A DNA stretch of 64,000 nt. Origin: Oscillospiraceae bacterium (GTDB taxonomy: Bacteria > Bacillota > Clostridia > Oscillospirales > Ruminococcaceae). The stretch lies in assembly GCA_017887325.1 (NCBI GenBank), contig JAGHIE010000012.1, positions 1 through 64,000 of the forward strand. Direction: 5' to 3'. Numbering within the stretch: the stretch's first letter is position 1; the number at the start of each line of letters is the position of its first letter. The position numbers and the translations under genes were made by a program. Below, in pieces: positions 5,129-13,247 of the stretch. A model generated the notes under the pieces. The model saw only the letters and a list, made by a program, of their open reading frames with translations, did no database searches and was not told where the DNA came from.

Positions 5129-5160
5129 AAAAAGAGCAGTTTTAAAACTGCTCTTTTTAT
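5127..5160. terminator. Bidirectional terminator
   Basis: aaaaaaagagcagttttaaaactgctctttttatttt. Confidence 0.75.
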
Positions 5161-6683
5161 TTTACTTTAGGAAACTTAATTATAACTTCAAACAAATCGG
5201 CTTTTATGTTTATATCGAATTGATAATCCATATTAACTGCTAAATTTTTAGCAATATAAAGACCTAATCCACTTCCTTCAGTATTTCTTGAACTATCCCC
5301 TCTAATAAACTGATCTGTAACTTGTTCTTTAGATATATTTAATCTATTCTTAGATATGTTTTTTAAAGATAAGACATAATACTCTTCATCAATGAATAAA
5401 TCCAAATATACTCTACTATTTTTTAGTGAGTATTTTAAAACATTTGAAAAAAGATTTTCTAATATTCTCCACAAATATCTTCCATCGGCTTTAATAATTA
5501 AATTTTCTCTGGGAATATTCTCAACTAATTCTAATTTATTTTTTTTAAGTTGTTCATCATATTCGCCACAAATTTGTCCGACAATTTCATTTAAATCAAT
5601 ATCTTCAAAATTCATTGAAATATTATTTGTACCAACCTTACTAGCCTCTATCAAATCTTCTATCAACACTTTTAATCTCTTAGATTTATTATGAATAATT
5701 CTTGTATATTCACTAATTTGTTCATTTGAAGGATTATTATATGTTATTAAGTCTGAGTAATTGATTATAGAAGTCAAAGGTGTTTTTATATCATGGGATA
5801 CATTTGTAATTAATTCTGTTCTAAATCTTTCTGATTTCAACTTATCTTCCAATGAATTTTGATAAACCATATTCTCATAATTTTTTCTTTTATCGAAAGA
5901 AAACCTAGTAGAAATCTTCATTGTAAAGAAAACTAACACCGCAACTACTATACAATAAAACAATGAAACCTTATTAAAGTAATCGAACTTATTTATATAT
6001 TCTCCCAAAGAAACTTCATAATAATAATCAATTTCCATATTCATCAAATATAGTAAATAAATAAATATAAGTATAGTAATTATTTGTAAAGTAGATAAAA
6101 TTATAAATATAGGACTCTTAACTCCAAATTCTTTATAAAATCTATAAAAAGTCAACTTTTTATATCTATCATCTTTTATTAGTAATACAAAAATTGCAAA
6201 TATAGTAATAACTTCTGTTAAAAACAATATAGTTGGTAATAAAATGATATTTAAAAAATCTCTATTAATATAAGATTCTTGAACAACTAATCTAAAAAAT
6301 AAGATTACATTTATTAAAATAGCAACATAAAACCAAATTTTTAAATTTTTAATTTCTATTTTATCTAATCTTGATTTATTTTTTAACAATATCAATACCA
6401 TATTTACTATCAATAATATTATAAAAATCGGAGTTAAAAATCTAAAAGGTGCTATTGAATCCATGTATGTTATATTACCAGAAGTAAAATGATAAAGAGC
6501 AAATTTATCAATATAATAAAATCTAAAACTATTTACGCTATAACACAAATTATTATAAACACCTAAATATGATAATATTAAAAGTATTCCAAAACTAAAA
6601 TATAAAATTTTTTTACTATTTAAAATTTTATCTCTTACAATACCCTTAAATTTTGTTACATCAATATTTTTTAAATCAATCAT
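5157..6683 (-). CDS. Membrane sensor histidine kinase
   Basis: Multiple TMs; HisKA NVSHDIKTPLTSIINY; HATPase GSGLGLYIAKN. Confidence 0.9.
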   Translation of the reverse strand: MIDLKNIDVTKFKGIVRDKILNSKKILYFSFGILLILSYLGVYNNLCYSVNSFRFYYIDKFALYHFTSGNITYMDSIAPFRFLTPIFIILLIVNMVLILLKNKSRLDKIEIKNLKIWFYVAILINVILFFRLVVQESYINRDFLNIILLPTILFLTEVITIFAIFVLLIKDDRYKKLTFYRFYKEFGVKSPIFIILSTLQIITILIFIYLLYLMNMEIDYYYEVSLGEYINKFDYFNKVSLFYCIVVAVLVFFTMKISTRFSFDKRKNYENMVYQNSLEDKLKSERFRTELITNVSHDIKTPLTSIINYSDLITYNNPSNEQISEYTRIIHNKSKRLKVLIEDLIEASKVGTNNISMNFEDIDLNEIVGQICGEYDEQLKKNKLELVENIPRENLIIKADGRYLWRILENLFSNVLKYSLKNSRVYLDLFIDEEYYVLSLKNISKNRLNISKEQVTDQFIRGDSSRNTEGSGLGLYIAKNLAVNMDYQFDINIKADLFEVIIKFPKVK

Positions 6684-7387
6684 TTTAAATCCACCACCTT
6701 ATACCCTAGTCCATAAACTATTTTCAAATATCTTGGTTCTTTTGGATTTATTTCAATTTTTTCTCTTATATGTCTTATATGTACAGAAATAGTTTTCCCA
6801 ACATCAAAAGCTGGTTCTTTCCAAACTTTCTCATAAATTTGCTTTGCACTTAAAACAATATCTTTATTTTGAACTAATAGTTTTAAAATTTTATATTCTG
6901 TTGCAGTTAAAACGACTTCTTCTCCATCTACTAAAACTTTCTTTTTATCATCATCAATATACAATCCACCTGCTATATAAGTATTATCACTCTGTTTAGT
7001 TGTTTCTTTTATACCTCCTAAACTTGAATATCTTCTAATGTTAGCCCTCACTCTAGCAATCAATTCAGTATGATTAAAAGGCTTTGTAATATAATCATCA
7101 GCTCCAATATTTAAACCTAATATTCTATCTGTATCTTCACTCTTAGCGCTTAAAAAAATTATAGGAATATTACTAAACTCCCTTATCTTAATAGCGGTAG
7201 TAAATCCGTCCATATTAGGCATCATAATATCAAGTAATATTAAATGAATTTCATTTGACTTTACTATATCGATAGCCTTTAACCCATCTGAAGCTTTAAA
7301 AACTTCAAAATCCTCATTTTTTAAATAAATTTGTAAAGCATCTCTTATTTCTTTTTCATCGTCGCATACTAATATTTTGTATTTCAT
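6680..7387 (-). CDS. OmpR/PhoB-family response regulator
   Basis: ILVCDDEKEIRDAL, LILLDIMMPNMDG; winged-helix C-terminus VRHIREKIE...YGLGYK; overlaps the kinase gene. Confidence 0.95.
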   Translation of the reverse strand: MKYKILVCDDEKEIRDALQIYLKNEDFEVFKASDGLKAIDIVKSNEIHLILLDIMMPNMDGFTTAIKIREFSNIPIIFLSAKSEDTDRILGLNIGADDYITKPFNHTELIARVRANIRRYSSLGGIKETTKQSDNTYIAGGLYIDDDKKKVLVDGEEVVLTATEYKILKLLVQNKDIVLSAKQIYEKVWKEPAFDVGKTISVHIRHIREKIEINPKEPRYLKIVYGLGYKVVDLK

Positions 7388-7510: not shown

Positions 7511-7544
7511 AAAAACATCACTATAAAAGTGATGTTTTTATTTT
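7511..7544 (-). terminator. Terminator downstream of the dlt-like operon
   Basis: aaaaacatcactataaaagtgatgttttta. Confidence 0.75.
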
Positions 7545-8505
7545 AAACCTTATTTAAAAGCCCATTATAATGTTTTACACTATTATGCCAATCTGAATAT
7601 TCTTTATCATTTCTTTTATCTTTTAATAAATTAGGATATTTTTCTAAAATATATTTTCCAATATATTCAGTAGCTTTTGAAGCACCATTAATATTCATAT
7701 GGTTTCCATTATCTCTAAAGTCAGTTTTTAAATTCAATTCATAACCATCTAAAGGAGTATTCATATCAATAAACTCTACACCATGCTTTTCTGCCAAAGC
7801 TTTAACATAATTATGTTTTGAATAATTCCAAGAACTAGCACTAGGTAATTCTAGGAAAAAAACTTCAATATTATTCTTTTTACATGTATTTACAAATTGT
7901 TCAACATATTTTAAATTTTCTTTAGGCATTGGTTTAGGTTTAGCATCTTTACTACCCATATAATCAGTTGAATATTTAGTTTTAAAAACCTTATTAGATG
8001 GAACTAAGCCTTTGTTCATATCAACTTTATTTTTTCTACTTGGTATTTTGTAAAAATCTCTCGCTTTTAATTCTTTCCAACGAGAATGGAACATGAAAGG
8101 AGATAATAAAATATTAGATTCGTCAATTTGAAATTTACTTTCTTTATAAAAACAATCTGTTTCTAAAATAGCTATTTTAGGTTTTTGAGTTTTTAGTGTT
8201 TTATCTAATAATAAATTAATATTATTTAAAGTTTGTAGTGGCCTACCTGAAGCATATGAAGTATAACCATATTTATCAAATAGTACAGCAGGTGCAAAAC
8301 CAGAATATACATCAGAATTCCCATAAACTACAACATCTAAAGAATTAACTGGTTCTGCCATAAATCCCATACCTCTGTAATAATGAGTACCACCTGAATC
8401 ATTAATATCTTTAGGCGCTACTATCAAACATATATAAAAATATATCCCAAAACTAATAATAAAACATAAAAATATGGATATAATTTTTTTCATTTTAGTA
8501 GTCAT
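7543..8505 (-). CDS. DltD-like SGNH-fold protein (start revised from 8562 to 8505)
   Basis: N-terminal TM; VYGNSDVYSGFAP and DNGNHMNINGA blocks; GGAGG RBS in front of ATG at 8505. Confidence 0.8.
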   Translation of the reverse strand: MTTKMKKIISIFLCFIISFGIYFYICLIVAPKDINDSGGTHYYRGMGFMAEPVNSLDVVVYGNSDVYSGFAPAVLFDKYGYTSYASGRPLQTLNNINLLLDKTLKTQKPKIAILETDCFYKESKFQIDESNILLSPFMFHSRWKELKARDFYKIPSRKNKVDMNKGLVPSNKVFKTKYSTDYMGSKDAKPKPMPKENLKYVEQFVNTCKKNNIEVFFLELPSASSWNYSKHNYVKALAEKHGVEFIDMNTPLDGYELNLKTDFRDNGNHMNINGASKATEYIGKYILEKYPNLLKDKRNDKEYSDWHNSVKHYNGLLNKV

Positions 8506-8506
8506 A

Positions 8507-10060
8507 TTAAAAACCTCCATAAATAGGGTCTGGTGGTAAATAATCAAGACCATAAGCACCAAATACTACAATGACTGTAAATAATGCAAAGCAAACAAAG
8601 TATTTTTTAATAGAAGACAAATTATTAAACTTATCTTCAATATCTATACCTTTAATTTTAGCAACAGCACCTAATATTAAAATACCTATAGAAACTATCA
8701 AAGCTAAAATGTCTTGCATTTCCAATATTTTTAATAGATTAAAATATTCTCCATTTTTAAATATTGATAAAATCATATTACCAAATACAGACATATTTTC
8801 TGCTCTAAACATAATCATACCAATTAATACTAATAAAAATGTTTTTACAACTCTTATAGAAATAAGAATTTTATTGTCATTACTAATATTATTTTTTGCA
8901 AGTATTTTTTCTACATATGGAGAAATAATATTAAATAGAATCATTAAAATAAAATAATATAAACCATAACATACATATTTAATACTTGCACCATGCCACA
9001 ATCCTGTTAAAAACCAAACAACTAACAAAGATATTGTTATAGTAACAAAATTTGAAATATTAAAGCTTAATTTTTGAGTTGATTTTCTTAAAAATTTTGA
9101 TGTTGATACTGGATAGAAAACATAATCTCTAAACCAAGCACCCAATGATATATGCCATCTTCTCCAAAACTCACCAACATTTTTAGAAATAAAAGGTAAA
9201 TCAAAGTTCTTAGACAACTCTATATTGAATATCTTAGAAATACCTCTTGCTATATCAATATATCCAGAAAATTCTGCATATAATTGTACAGTAAATGCTA
9301 CACCACCTAATAATATAGTAACACCACCATATTTCCCGTTATCTTTAAATACTGCGTCTGAAATCATAGAAGCACGATTTGCAACCATAAATATTTTAAA
9401 TAAACCCCATAAAATTTTTGCGATACCATTATATAAATTATTAACGTTTATATTGTCACCTTTTTCCATTTGAGGCATTAACAAATCATATCTTCCAAAA
9501 GGACCTTCATGTAGTTGAGGCAAAAAGCAAATAAATAAACCAACTTTTAATATATTTTTTTCTGCTTTATATTTGCCCCTAAATACATCTATAACATATC
9601 CTAATGCTTGCAATGTATAGTAAGATAAACCTAAAGGTAAAGCTATTTTTAAAATAAAAGGCTCATAATTTCCACCGAATTTATTTAATATATTAGTGGT
9701 AGTTAAAGCAAAAAAGTTAAAATATTTTAATATCAATAAAATTCCAACATTTATAACTATATAGGATAAAACAACAATTTGTTTTTTCTGTTTAATTTTT
9801 GCTTTAACTTTTTTTCTCACTTCTTTGTCAAGTGCCTTAATATCAACACTTTGCGTAATTTTATCCATTATAATTCCTGATAAAAATGTAGTTAAAACTG
9901 TAGCTAAAATAAATACAACAGTAAATTTACTTATATAACATAAGAAAGCTAAACTAATAGCTAATAGAACAATATAACGCTGTCTGCGAGGGCAAACAGC
10001 GTAAATAGCTATAGTGACTGCTGTAAATATTAATAACATAGTCATCATAAAGTAAGGCAT
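8507..10060 (-). CDS. MBOAT family O-acyltransferase (DltB/AlgI-like)
   Basis: Multi-TM; EGPFGRYDLLMPQ, NVGEFWRRWHISLGAWFRDYVFYP, FLTGLWHGASIKYVCYGLY with the MBOAT His. Confidence 0.9.
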   Translation of the reverse strand: MPYFMMTMLLIFTAVTIAIYAVCPRRQRYIVLLAISLAFLCYISKFTVVFILATVLTTFLSGIIMDKITQSVDIKALDKEVRKKVKAKIKQKKQIVVLSYIVINVGILLILKYFNFFALTTTNILNKFGGNYEPFILKIALPLGLSYYTLQALGYVIDVFRGKYKAEKNILKVGLFICFLPQLHEGPFGRYDLLMPQMEKGDNINVNNLYNGIAKILWGLFKIFMVANRASMISDAVFKDNGKYGGVTILLGGVAFTVQLYAEFSGYIDIARGISKIFNIELSKNFDLPFISKNVGEFWRRWHISLGAWFRDYVFYPVSTSKFLRKSTQKLSFNISNFVTITISLLVVWFLTGLWHGASIKYVCYGLYYFILMILFNIISPYVEKILAKNNISNDNKILISIRVVKTFLLVLIGMIMFRAENMSVFGNMILSIFKNGEYFNLLKILEMQDILALIVSIGILILGAVAKIKGIDIEDKFNNLSSIKKYFVCFALFTVIVVFGAYGLDYLPPDPIYGGF

Positions 10061-10062
10061 AA

Positions 10063-10290
10063 TTACTCTCCGTCTAATTCAACAACTAAATTGTATATAC
10101 TTTCAACAGAATTAAAATTTTCAGGAATTAAATGAATAGGTGTTATCTCTATATCAAATTCCTCATTCAACATAGAAACAAGTCTTACAATATTAAGAGA
10201 TGTTAATATTTTAGCATCAACTAAGTTTGTTGCACCTTTAAAATCTGTATTTGGTATAATTTCTTCTAATATTTTATAAATTCTTTCCAT
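10063..10290 (-). CDS. Acyl/peptidyl carrier protein (DltC-like position)
   Basis: 75 aa helical carrier-like; ILTSLNIVRLV in place of the DSL motif; in operon with the adenylation enzyme. Confidence 0.75.
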   Translation of the reverse strand: MERIYKILEEIIPNTDFKGATNLVDAKILTSLNIVRLVSMLNEEFDIEITPIHLIPENFNSVESIYNLVVELDGE

Positions 10291-10292
10291 AA

Positions 10293-11819
10293 CTATTCTC
10301 CTTTATCTTCCAAAATAACTTTACTAATTTGTTTACGGTCTATTTTTCCATTAGCATTTTTAGGAAAAATATCAAATTTTATAAATTCTGATGGTTGCAT
10401 ATAGTGAGGTAAAAGTTTTTCACTAGCTTGTTTTAACTCTTTGTTAATATCATTTTTTGCTTCATAAGCTAAAATCAGCTTATCATTAACTTTATCATAA
10501 ATACATACTGACAAATCTACTTTATCAACAGTATTTAAAACAACTTCTATTTCACTAGGTTCTATTCTATAACCCAAGTGTTTTATTTGAAAATCTTTTC
10601 TACCTATATAATCAAACTCACCATATTTATTTTTCTTAACAAGGTCACCTGTTTTATAAACTATATCTATATAATTATCATGTAATGGATTTTGTACAAA
10701 AACTTCACTCGTTTTTTCTTTATTAGCATAGTAACCACTAGCAACAAAAGGTCCTTTTACAAGAAGTTCTCCTATTGAGTCATCTAAAACTTCTTTTCCA
10801 TTTTCATCTACAACAAGTAATTCACAGTTATCACAAGCAACTCCAATAGGAATATTTTGTGTTTCATCAAAATCTCTATTAACTATGTAATATGAACAAA
10901 TATCGGTTGTTTCTGTAGGTCCAAAAAGATTTGCATACAATATATTAGGTAAATATTTTTTCCAGTAATTTAAATATTTAACAGGCATTACCTCTCCTGC
11001 AAAAAATACTTTTTTCAAATATTCAGGCATACAATACTTTAGTAAATCAAATTTTGCAACAATTCCTAACGCTGAAGGAACCCAATAAATTGTATCAATT
11101 TTTTTATCGTTCATAAAAGAAATCAATTTAGCTGGGAATGCAAAATATTCTTTAGGTATCATATTATAAGAAGCACCAGTGAAGATACTTGCATAAAAGT
11201 CAGATACTGACATACTAAAATATAATGGTGTTTGTGAACCAAATGAAGTATTTTCATTTATATCAAAACATTTTATAAACCAATGTATATAGCTTATAAC
11301 ATTTAAATGAGTCAATATAGCTCCTTTAGGAACACCTGTAGAACCAGAAGTAAATATTGAATAAGCAGTATTACTAGAAGTCATTTTATTTCTAATGTTT
11401 TCTAAACTTTGCTCATCAATCACAATATTTCTAAATGCATCTTCAAAATCAAGTTTATGTATTTGTAAATTTAATTCACTTAATATACTTGCCAAATCAT
11501 TTTCATATATTATCATAGCCGGTGACAATGTTGTTATGATTTTGTCAATTCTTTGCAAAGGTGATTCGCAATCTAATACAACATAGAAATTACCACTATA
11601 TAAAACACTCATCATTGCAATTGGCAAATTTGTTGTTCGTTTCATAAGTAAAACAATTGGTTTATCACTAATATTATATTTTACTATCTCAGTAGCTAAA
11701 ATCTTTGACTTATTCATTAGTTCATTATAAGTAAGACTATTATTAATATCTGATACTGCAATATTATCAGGAAACTTATTTACAGTGCTTTCAAAATAAT
11801 CTAATATAGTTTTTTTCAC
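10293..11819 (-). CDS. DltA-like adenylation enzyme (GTG start at 11819 preferred)
   Basis: YSIFTSGSTGVPKGAILTH (A3), LFGPTETT (A5), YKTGDLV (A7), NGKIDRK (A10); ggggtgg RBS before GTG. Confidence 0.85.
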   Translation of the reverse strand: MKKTILDYFESTVNKFPDNIAVSDINNSLTYNELMNKSKILATEIVKYNISDKPIVLLMKRTTNLPIAMMSVLYSGNFYVVLDCESPLQRIDKIITTLSPAMIIYENDLASILSELNLQIHKLDFEDAFRNIVIDEQSLENIRNKMTSSNTAYSIFTSGSTGVPKGAILTHLNVISYIHWFIKCFDINENTSFGSQTPLYFSMSVSDFYASIFTGASYNMIPKEYFAFPAKLISFMNDKKIDTIYWVPSALGIVAKFDLLKYCMPEYLKKVFFAGEVMPVKYLNYWKKYLPNILYANLFGPTETTDICSYYIVNRDFDETQNIPIGVACDNCELLVVDENGKEVLDDSIGELLVKGPFVASGYYANKEKTSEVFVQNPLHDNYIDIVYKTGDLVKKNKYGEFDYIGRKDFQIKHLGYRIEPSEIEVVLNTVDKVDLSVCIYDKVNDKLILAYEAKNDINKELKQASEKLLPHYMQPSEFIKFDIFPKNANGKIDRKQISKVILEDKGE

Positions 11820-11820
11820 A

Positions 11821-12480
11821 CTACCACCCCTTTTGGATAACGCTTGGAAATTTATCATCTATACTACTACAAACTGAAATTACAATATTATCAATAAAGT
11901 AACTATTTATATACATATCATTAATTTTTTGATTTTTTCTAAAAATAGTCTCATTATTTTTATTTAATTTCATGTCATATTTTGGTGTAGTATCTAATAA
12001 ATTAAAATTAAATTCTAAGCCCTTTCCTAAACATTTAATATAACTTTCTTTTCTAGTCCATATCAATGTAAATGCAAAATTTTTATCTTCTGACTTTTCA
12101 ACATACATTCTTTCGAAATCTGTAAAAAAGTACTTCATAAGATTATAATCAACATTTTTAATAAATTCGCAATCAACACCAATACATCCATTTAAATTTT
12201 CAATTCCTAAAAAAAGAAAATTATTATCATATGATCTACTAAAGCTAATATCATCATAATTATTTAAAAAAGGCTTTTCTCCAACCTTACCACAAATATC
12301 TATATCATTAATACCTGAAAAAGCTTTTATTTCATCAACAGTAATTTTTTCAGCCGATATAAATTTTTGTTTTTCATAATCACTAGTAAAAATATCTGCT
12401 CTAGTTTTTCTATCTGGAGATAAATCAAAATTGTTATCTAAAAAATTGATATAATCTTTTACTAATACTAACAATTTCAT
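11821..12480 (-). CDS. Sfp-type 4'-phosphopantetheinyl transferase
   Basis: GCIGVDCEFI, YFFTDFERMY, WTRKESYIKCLGKGL motifs. Confidence 0.9.
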   Translation of the reverse strand: MKLLVLVKDYINFLDNNFDLSPDRKTRADIFTSDYEKQKFISAEKITVDEIKAFSGINDIDICGKVGEKPFLNNYDDISFSRSYDNNFLFLGIENLNGCIGVDCEFIKNVDYNLMKYFFTDFERMYVEKSEDKNFAFTLIWTRKESYIKCLGKGLEFNFNLLDTTPKYDMKLNKNNETIFRKNQKINDMYINSYFIDNIVISVCSSIDDKFPSVIQKGW

Positions 12481-12587: not shown

Positions 12588-13247
12588 TTAATTTTTTAAT
12601 ATATATTTCGCAATTATTTCACTATCAACAATATAATCATAATGATTATGCCCCTTAAATATGTCTAATTGACATTTCTTTATGTTGTCATTAATCATTT
12701 GTATATGTCTTTTATATATAACATCATTACTCCCCATAGTTATATAGGTATCGACTTTTATTTTTTTTAAATCATTTAAAGTTATATTGGGTTCTTTTAA
12801 CATCATTATAGTTTTCTTTGATTTTGTAAGTATATAGCTAATCCACATTCCAAACCTAACAAATTTTTTTAATCCCTTAGGATTTATATTAACGCCACTA
12901 ACAATTAATTTTGACAATAAATTGGGATATTTATAAGCCAATATTAAACCAATAATACCACCATCACTAAATCCATAAAAAATTGGTTTGTCCAAATTTA
13001 ACTGATTTATAAAATTATATAAATCCATTACATGATTTTCATAATGTAAAGTTTCAACTTTGGAAGATTTTCCATGATCTCTCAAATCTAAAACATAAAC
13101 AGTAAAATAACTTTTTAAAATTTCAACACTTTTATTAAATATTGTTGAATCTTCCCCATTACCATGTATCATTATTAAATCTTTTCCATTTCCGTATTTT
13201 TCATAATACATATTTATATCATTTAATTTAATAAACATAATTATCAC
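12588..13247 (-). CDS. Alpha/beta hydrolase
   Basis: LIMIHGNGEDSTIF, LDLRDHGKSS, FYGFSDGG nucleophile elbow, GHNHYDYI. Confidence 0.9.
   Translation of the reverse strand: MIIMFIKLNDINMYYEKYGNGKDLIMIHGNGEDSTIFNKSVEILKSYFTVYVLDLRDHGKSSKVETLHYENHVMDLYNFINQLNLDKPIFYGFSDGGIIGLILAYKYPNLLSKLIVSGVNINPKGLKKFVRFGMWISYILTKSKKTIMMLKEPNITLNDLKKIKVDTYITMGSNDVIYKRHIQMINDNIKKCQLDIFKGHNHYDYIVDSEIIAKYILKN

Follow-up and report, generated by a model that had tools for sequence, protein, structure and literature searches.

Many gut and anaerobic bacteria, among them the one whose genome provided the DNA studied here, probably use a relative of the D-alanine wall-decorating machinery to attach another small molecule to their surface, since the pocket of the substrate-selecting enzyme differs from that of DltA and is strictly conserved. 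This variant of the Dlt/MBOAT-SGNH type is widespread and is undescribed in the literature that we searched: queries on non-D-Ala Dlt systems and on fused-shuttle carrier systems returned no description, with the reserve that a 2023 acyl-shuttle paper may mention such systems. The first-pass annotation of this DNA had suggested an undescribed surface-polymer acylation system, and the suggestion now extends to a widespread family of Dlt-like surface acylation operons. The operon lies in a stretch of 64,000 nucleotides from an Oscillospiraceae bacterium (hereafter the window) as a compact minus-strand run of PPTase, adenylation enzyme, carrier, MBOAT and SGNH genes, followed directly by a terminator-like hairpin. 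Its parts and its neighbours are as follows:

12588..13247, minus strand: alpha/beta hydrolase, upstream, kept in the nearest relatives only
11821..12480, minus strand: Sfp-type 4'-phosphopantetheinyl transferase (PPTase; PF01648, AusB/HetI-like)
10293..11819, minus strand: stand-alone DltA-like adenylation enzyme, 508 aa, GTG start at 11819
10063..10290, minus strand: acyl carrier protein, 75 aa, phosphopantetheine Ser31 (PF00550; Ser31 kept in 76/77)
8507..10060, minus strand: MBOAT acyltransferase, 517 aa, conserved His356 (PF03062; TIGR04091 149 bits, cut-off 375)
8510..8527, minus strand: PIYGGF, hexapeptide at the C terminus of the MBOAT, a fused acyl-shuttle motif with Tyr as in PMC12148441 (Tyr514 and Phe517 kept in 72/76)
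7543..8514, minus strand: membrane-anchored SGNH acyltransferase, Ser67 and Asp268/Gly270/His272 (start GTG 8514 or ATG 8505; SGNH fold by AF2 and Foldseek)
7511..7539, minus strand: terminator-like hairpin ending the operon after the SGNH gene
5157..7387, minus strand: VanR/VanS-like two-component system downstream of the terminator, candidate regulator

The first-pass annotation gave no strand for the adenylation gene; stops are found throughout the plus strand of 10293-11819 and the gene is on the minus strand, where an alternative ATG start at 11858 would give 521 aa and overlap the PPTase gene. Every motif that had been quoted (TSGSTGVPKG, YFSMSVSDFY, FFAGEVMP, GPTET and NGKIDRK) is found in the enzyme, the catalytic ones intact in a full-length frame as had been claimed, and the AF2 model, made with 44 related sequences as input, reaches a mean pLDDT of 91.6; its best PDB folds by Foldseek are GrsA PheA (1e-47), then other A domains including DltA. 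With the AMP-binding fold, the core motifs and the catalytic Lys of the adenylate-forming A-domain superfamily, and with 193 bits for PF00501, the protein looks intact and functional, in agreement with the earlier view of it. It falls outside DltA by the equivalog profile TIGR01734 (279 bits, cut-off 560). This score and the low identity to DltA might be taken as the mark of a DltA that is relaxed or in decay and has no specific substrate, an idea that we judge extremely improbable in view of the full-length frame, the complete set of catalytic motifs and a pocket near-invariant across many genera.

The residues of this pocket were placed by an alignment without gaps to the B. subtilis DltA sequence of PDB 3e7w and traced to their codons:

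11208-11219, minus strand: codons of FSMS (codon check)
11214..11216, minus strand: Ser202, at the amino-anchoring A4 Asp (GrsA 235; B. subtilis DltA Asp196; B. cereus Asp197), invariant in 81/81
11082..11084, minus strand: Trp246 (GrsA 278), common to the whole sister assemblage
10998..11000, minus strand: Ala274, at B. subtilis DltA Cys268 / B. cereus DltA Cys269 (GrsA 301), invariant in 81/81
10902..10904, minus strand: Asp306, at B. subtilis DltA Val300 / B. cereus Val301 (GrsA 330), invariant in 81/81
10344-10346, minus strand: Lys492, the catalytic Lys (codon check)

Two features of DltA are replaced, namely the A4 Asp by Ser202 and the D-Ala selectivity Cys by Ala274, and the first-pass annotation had read both correctly; Asp306 and Trp246 had escaped it. 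Ser, Met, Trp, Ala, Asp and Ile (GrsA 235, 236, 278, 301, 330 and 331) are invariant in all 81 sequences, and across 89 FSMS genes, a larger set, the code reads S-M-[STL]-W-[LMF]-A-L-D-I with seven of the nine positions invariant. The invariance of Ser, Met and Ala is partly built in, because the two peptide patterns used for retrieval contained QTP[FL]YFSM and [LF]FAGE[VT]MP; Trp, Asp and Ile are in neither. The same sites differ in sister genes, i.e., they are free to vary elsewhere, and, as judged from the alignments, the conservation of the pocket is more than chance.

In DltA, the amino group of the substrate is in contact with the A4 Asp, a residue absent from the A domains of hydroxy- and keto-acids, which have a small or aliphatic residue at this site, Gly or Ala and not Ser in the described hydroxy-acid domains (PMC11253843). 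Loss of this Asp is by itself compatible with an amino acid substrate, since McyG, with Val at the site, activates L-Phe (PMC11253843), and the change of Cys to Ala, presented in the first-pass annotation as a sign of a shifted substrate, proves to be a weak one: the C269A variant of B. cereus DltA is relaxed in D/L selectivity and still prefers D-Ala (PMC4176424). Because of these two precedents, Ser202 and Ala274 point to a new substrate as likely without establishing it. Both precedents favor a second reading, possible if rather doubtful to us, according to which the pathway is the same and its substrate is D-Ala, L-Ala or Gly, with the amino group held by Asp306 and Ser202, the operon being functionally the dlt of these anaerobes. 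It is worth adding on this side that Asp306 stands at B. cereus DltA Val301, a residue to which coordination of the alpha-amino group is ascribed (PMC11253843), that D-Ala and Gly are present in all these cells, and that the nearby VanRS-like regulators would fit a role in peptide stress needing a cationic ester. An Asp elsewhere in the amino-binding site had indeed been named beforehand as the observation that would speak against a shifted substrate; the invariant Asp306 is there, but relatives that keep the canonical Asp235 also carry an Asp at 330 (codes D-N-F-W-L-A-M-D-I and D-N-L-W-L-C-L-D-V), which weakens the notion of a relocated anchor or of a simple compensating swap. Furthermore, the contact at position 330 of GrsA may be made via the backbone, so the side chain of Asp306 may point elsewhere. 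Asp306 could nevertheless bind an amine or a hydroxyl of the substrate, and to the extent that it suits such a donor it counts against a non-amino substrate. Our leading guess is a small non-amino acid; Ala or Gly, with Asp306 as the holding residue, comes next.

A scan of 84,980 species genomes yielded 80 relatives with 45-64% identity to the adenylation enzyme; the 380 candidates from the same scan are not to be equated with 380 FSMS genes. Always encoded on the same strand, the core genes recur in these 80 loci (adenylation enzyme 80, carrier 77, MBOAT 76, SGNH 67) and the other neighbours vary freely. The features of an MBOAT-SGNH system are present, i.e., His356 and a C-terminal xxYxxF in the MBOAT and an SGNH partner with Ser, Asp and His, and Ser67, Asp268 and His272 of the latter are conserved among the relatives. 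The assignment of carrier, MBOAT, SGNH and PPTase to the operon of the adenylation enzyme, made in the first-pass annotation, is borne out by the back-to-back minus-strand genes. The PPTase, which had been called dedicated, likely activates the carrier and does belong to the operon, but it adjoins only about 5/80 relatives (the closest ones included) and is therefore not a defining part of the system. Response regulators adjoin 14/80 relatives, and the VanR/VanS-like pair is a possible regulator of the operon. We also observed a terminator-like G+C-rich hairpin at 9977-10002 of the window, on the minus strand and within the start of the MBOAT gene, which is unusual in an operon of 25% GC. The link between the parts of the operon is one of co-occurrence alone. 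Stand-alone A and carrier pairs are found in many natural-product pathways, and one could imagine a cytoplasmic or secreted small molecule as acceptor of the carrier-bound acyl group in place of a surface polymer; conservation of the fused-shuttle MBOAT and of the SGNH in 76/80 and 67/80 loci, together with the absence of conserved tailoring enzymes, makes such an outcome quite unlikely.

The hosts of the relatives include Lachnospiraceae, Clostridiaceae, Oscillospiraceae, Erysipelotrichaceae, Coprobacillaceae and Acidaminococcaceae. Within the genus of the window, the operon has a patchy distribution, since no homologue of the adenylation enzyme was found at E 1e-60 in three further genomes of this genus. 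In a class-wide sample of 393 genomes, the FSMS code occurs, among the 30 best matches, only in the window and three others, the rest having sister codes. Phascolarctobacterium faecium, a Negativicute and hence a member of a diderm group, has an FSMS gene and a carrier, and no adjoining MBOAT or SGNH was detected at its locus. Our phylogenies place the FSMS genes in one clade (support 100/100 in one tree, 100/99 in another) inside a larger assemblage, which a long and fully supported branch separates from DltA; the enzyme of the window does not group with DltA.

In the sister clades of this assemblage, enzymes with the code D-V-K-W-[LM]-S-L-C-N mostly adjoin a PLP decarboxylase; its best match in the PDB is BtrK, which decarboxylates the glutamyl-carrier in butirosin synthesis (PMC7857480). 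Enzymes with the code D-A-K-W-A-G-L-G-M often adjoin an aspartate-type racemase above the NCBIfam cut-off. From these neighbourhoods, the BtrK-like sister operons are predicted to decarboxylate a carrier-bound acidic amino acid before its transfer to the surface. At nine loci, the A enzyme (DVKW..CN, or IARW in one of them) was seen with a BtrK-like PLP decarboxylase, a carrier, an MBOAT and mostly an SGNH; at twelve others, the code DAKWAGLGM stands beside an aspartate-type racemase, TIGR00035 being above cut-off at one, and two DAKWAGLGM loci have an asparagine-synthase-like protein. Four loci carry two or three stand-alone A-domain genes in tandem, with codes such as DNFWVCLDV and DNFWLAMDI, and four more combine FDNS-type A enzymes and carriers, without a detected MBOAT, in clusters with radical-SAM-like and GAG-motif proteins. 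A second loss of the A4 Asp ([IV]-A-R-W) lies in a different part of the tree.

Since the codes of the sister clades come with matching accessory genes, the group as a whole seems to have branched out to different acyl groups. We incline, with the balance only slightly on its side, to the view that Bacillota hold a large group of Dlt-like operons, carrier-fed and with a fused shuttle, which has gone unrecognised until now and in which acyl groups have diversified, code and accessory genes changing together, and that the group attached by the FSMS clade is not D-Ala and possibly not an amino acid. That the sister systems read as one family with swapped acyl groups makes the idea of a non-D-Ala group in the window's clade more plausible; the same clades appear to use amino acids, as their racemase and decarboxylase suggest, and this counts against a non-amino substrate. 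The FSMS clade itself (S-M-x-W-x-A-L-D-I) has no accessory gene to match its code, and neighbourhood clustering of the 80 loci found no conserved accessory biosynthetic gene beside it, so a common metabolite is expected as its substrate. An omega-amino acid (beta-alanine, GABA or 5-aminovalerate) has been weighed here as well: Ser202 would reflect the missing alpha-amino group and Asp306 would bind the terminal amine, the pair S235 and D330 would suit such a substrate, and the BtrK-like decarboxylase of the sister clades would make an omega-amino acyl carrier. However, panD (PF02261) is present in only 9/34 operon-bearing genomes, PF00282 decarboxylases, the glutamate-decarboxylase type, give only 4 matches over the cut-off in 3/34 of them, and neither occurs in the genome of the window, which makes beta-alanine and GABA unlikely, with uptake or other routes as possible sources; VinN-type beta-amino acid domains, moreover, retain the A4 Asp (PMC11253843). 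We regard this option as improbable.

The genome of the window (97% complete, 2.3 Mb) holds no other AMP-binding enzyme, the adenylation enzyme of the operon being its sole PF00501 protein. No second canonical dltA, whose presence the first-pass annotation had advised checking, was thus found in it, and none of 33 operon-bearing genomes has a DltA that reaches the TIGR01734 cut-off. With the core operon kept and neither a canonical DltA nor another AMP-binding enzyme elsewhere in the genome, a carrier-fed, Dlt-like acylation of the envelope with a selectivity other than that of DltA is the most coherent reading. Two further MBOATs are encoded in the genome. Elsewhere in it are three large multi-TM proteins whose sulfatase domain is LtaS-like; they make a polyglycerol-phosphate acceptor possible. 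Six contigs of the genome together encode thirteen sulfatase-family proteins, these three included, most of them of about 450-550 aa.

It is tempting to assemble these elements into a pathway. The PPTase would convert the 75-aa carrier to its holo form, and the adenylation enzyme, to judge from its intact motifs and fold, would activate a small acid with ATP and load it on the carrier thiol. By analogy with the PatAB and Dlt mechanisms, the MBOAT would acylate, on the outer side of the membrane, the Tyr in the hexapeptide at its own C terminus; the SGNH, whose catalytic residues are conserved, would then take the group on its Ser and form an ester on a surface polymer, perhaps polyglycerol-phosphate lipoteichoic acid. 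The acyl group would come from a common small metabolite that has no alpha-amino group, e.g., lactate or glycolate. Taken as a whole, this Dlt-like envelope acylation pathway, with an acyl group most likely different from D-Ala held in the DltA manner (the pocket has neither the amino anchor nor the selectivity Cys) and with a lactate- or glycolate-like group as leading guess, is the reading to which we give most weight, at a little less than an even chance.

In eight tested gut commensals, including Blautia, Coprococcus and Anaerostipes strains, dltABCD was scored as absent (PMC10877564). Should Dlt-like operons with different acyl groups take its place in many Clostridia, the surface charge of these bacteria, their resistance to peptides and their recognition by the immune system would have been misread. 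Pocket codes and matching accessory genes provide testable predictions of new surface modifications.

Like the Dlt system of teichoic acid D-alanylation (DltA-DltC-DltB-DltX-DltD), the operon brings together a stand-alone A enzyme, a separate carrier, an MBOAT and an SGNH, but its A enzyme is devoid of the A4 Asp and the selectivity Cys, its proteins stay under the equivalog cut-offs of DltA, DltB and DltC, and DltX is missing: the genes are back to back, the gap after the SGNH gene has no ORF of at least 25 aa, and the MBOAT itself carries the Tyr shuttle. Neither can the SGNH be taken for DltD, which we rejected since the protein has a generic SGNH fold and no NCBIfam match, DltD not being among its 50 best PDB matches. 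In PatA/PatB-type O-acetylation, too, the MBOAT has a C-terminal hexapeptide with a shuttle Tyr, which is acylated there and passes the group to a separate SGNH partner; PatA, however, uses acetyl-CoA and no carrier, whereas the MBOAT of the window is apparently fed by the A enzyme and its carrier (PMC12148441). The same study describes Dlt as having the shuttle motif on the separate microprotein DltX with the carrier as donor, and fused-motif MBOAT-SGNH systems as being without a carrier; we infer that the window joins a carrier-fed pathway to an MBOAT-fused shuttle, a combination absent outside Dlt according to that work (PMC12148441). The BtrI/BtrK pair of butirosin also handles a carrier-bound acid and has its counterpart in the BtrK-like decarboxylases of the sister operons (PMC7857480), but it serves antibiotic biosynthesis, not surface acylation, and is not found in the window. 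Finally, the Alm system, responsible for lipopolysaccharide glycylation in Vibrio cholerae, offers the precedent of a DltA-like enzyme and a carrier that bring to the envelope an acyl group different from D-Ala (PMC3783018, PMC11253843), although its glycine enzyme is described with a DltA-like active site and AlmG is another kind of acyltransferase, working without MBOAT or SGNH.
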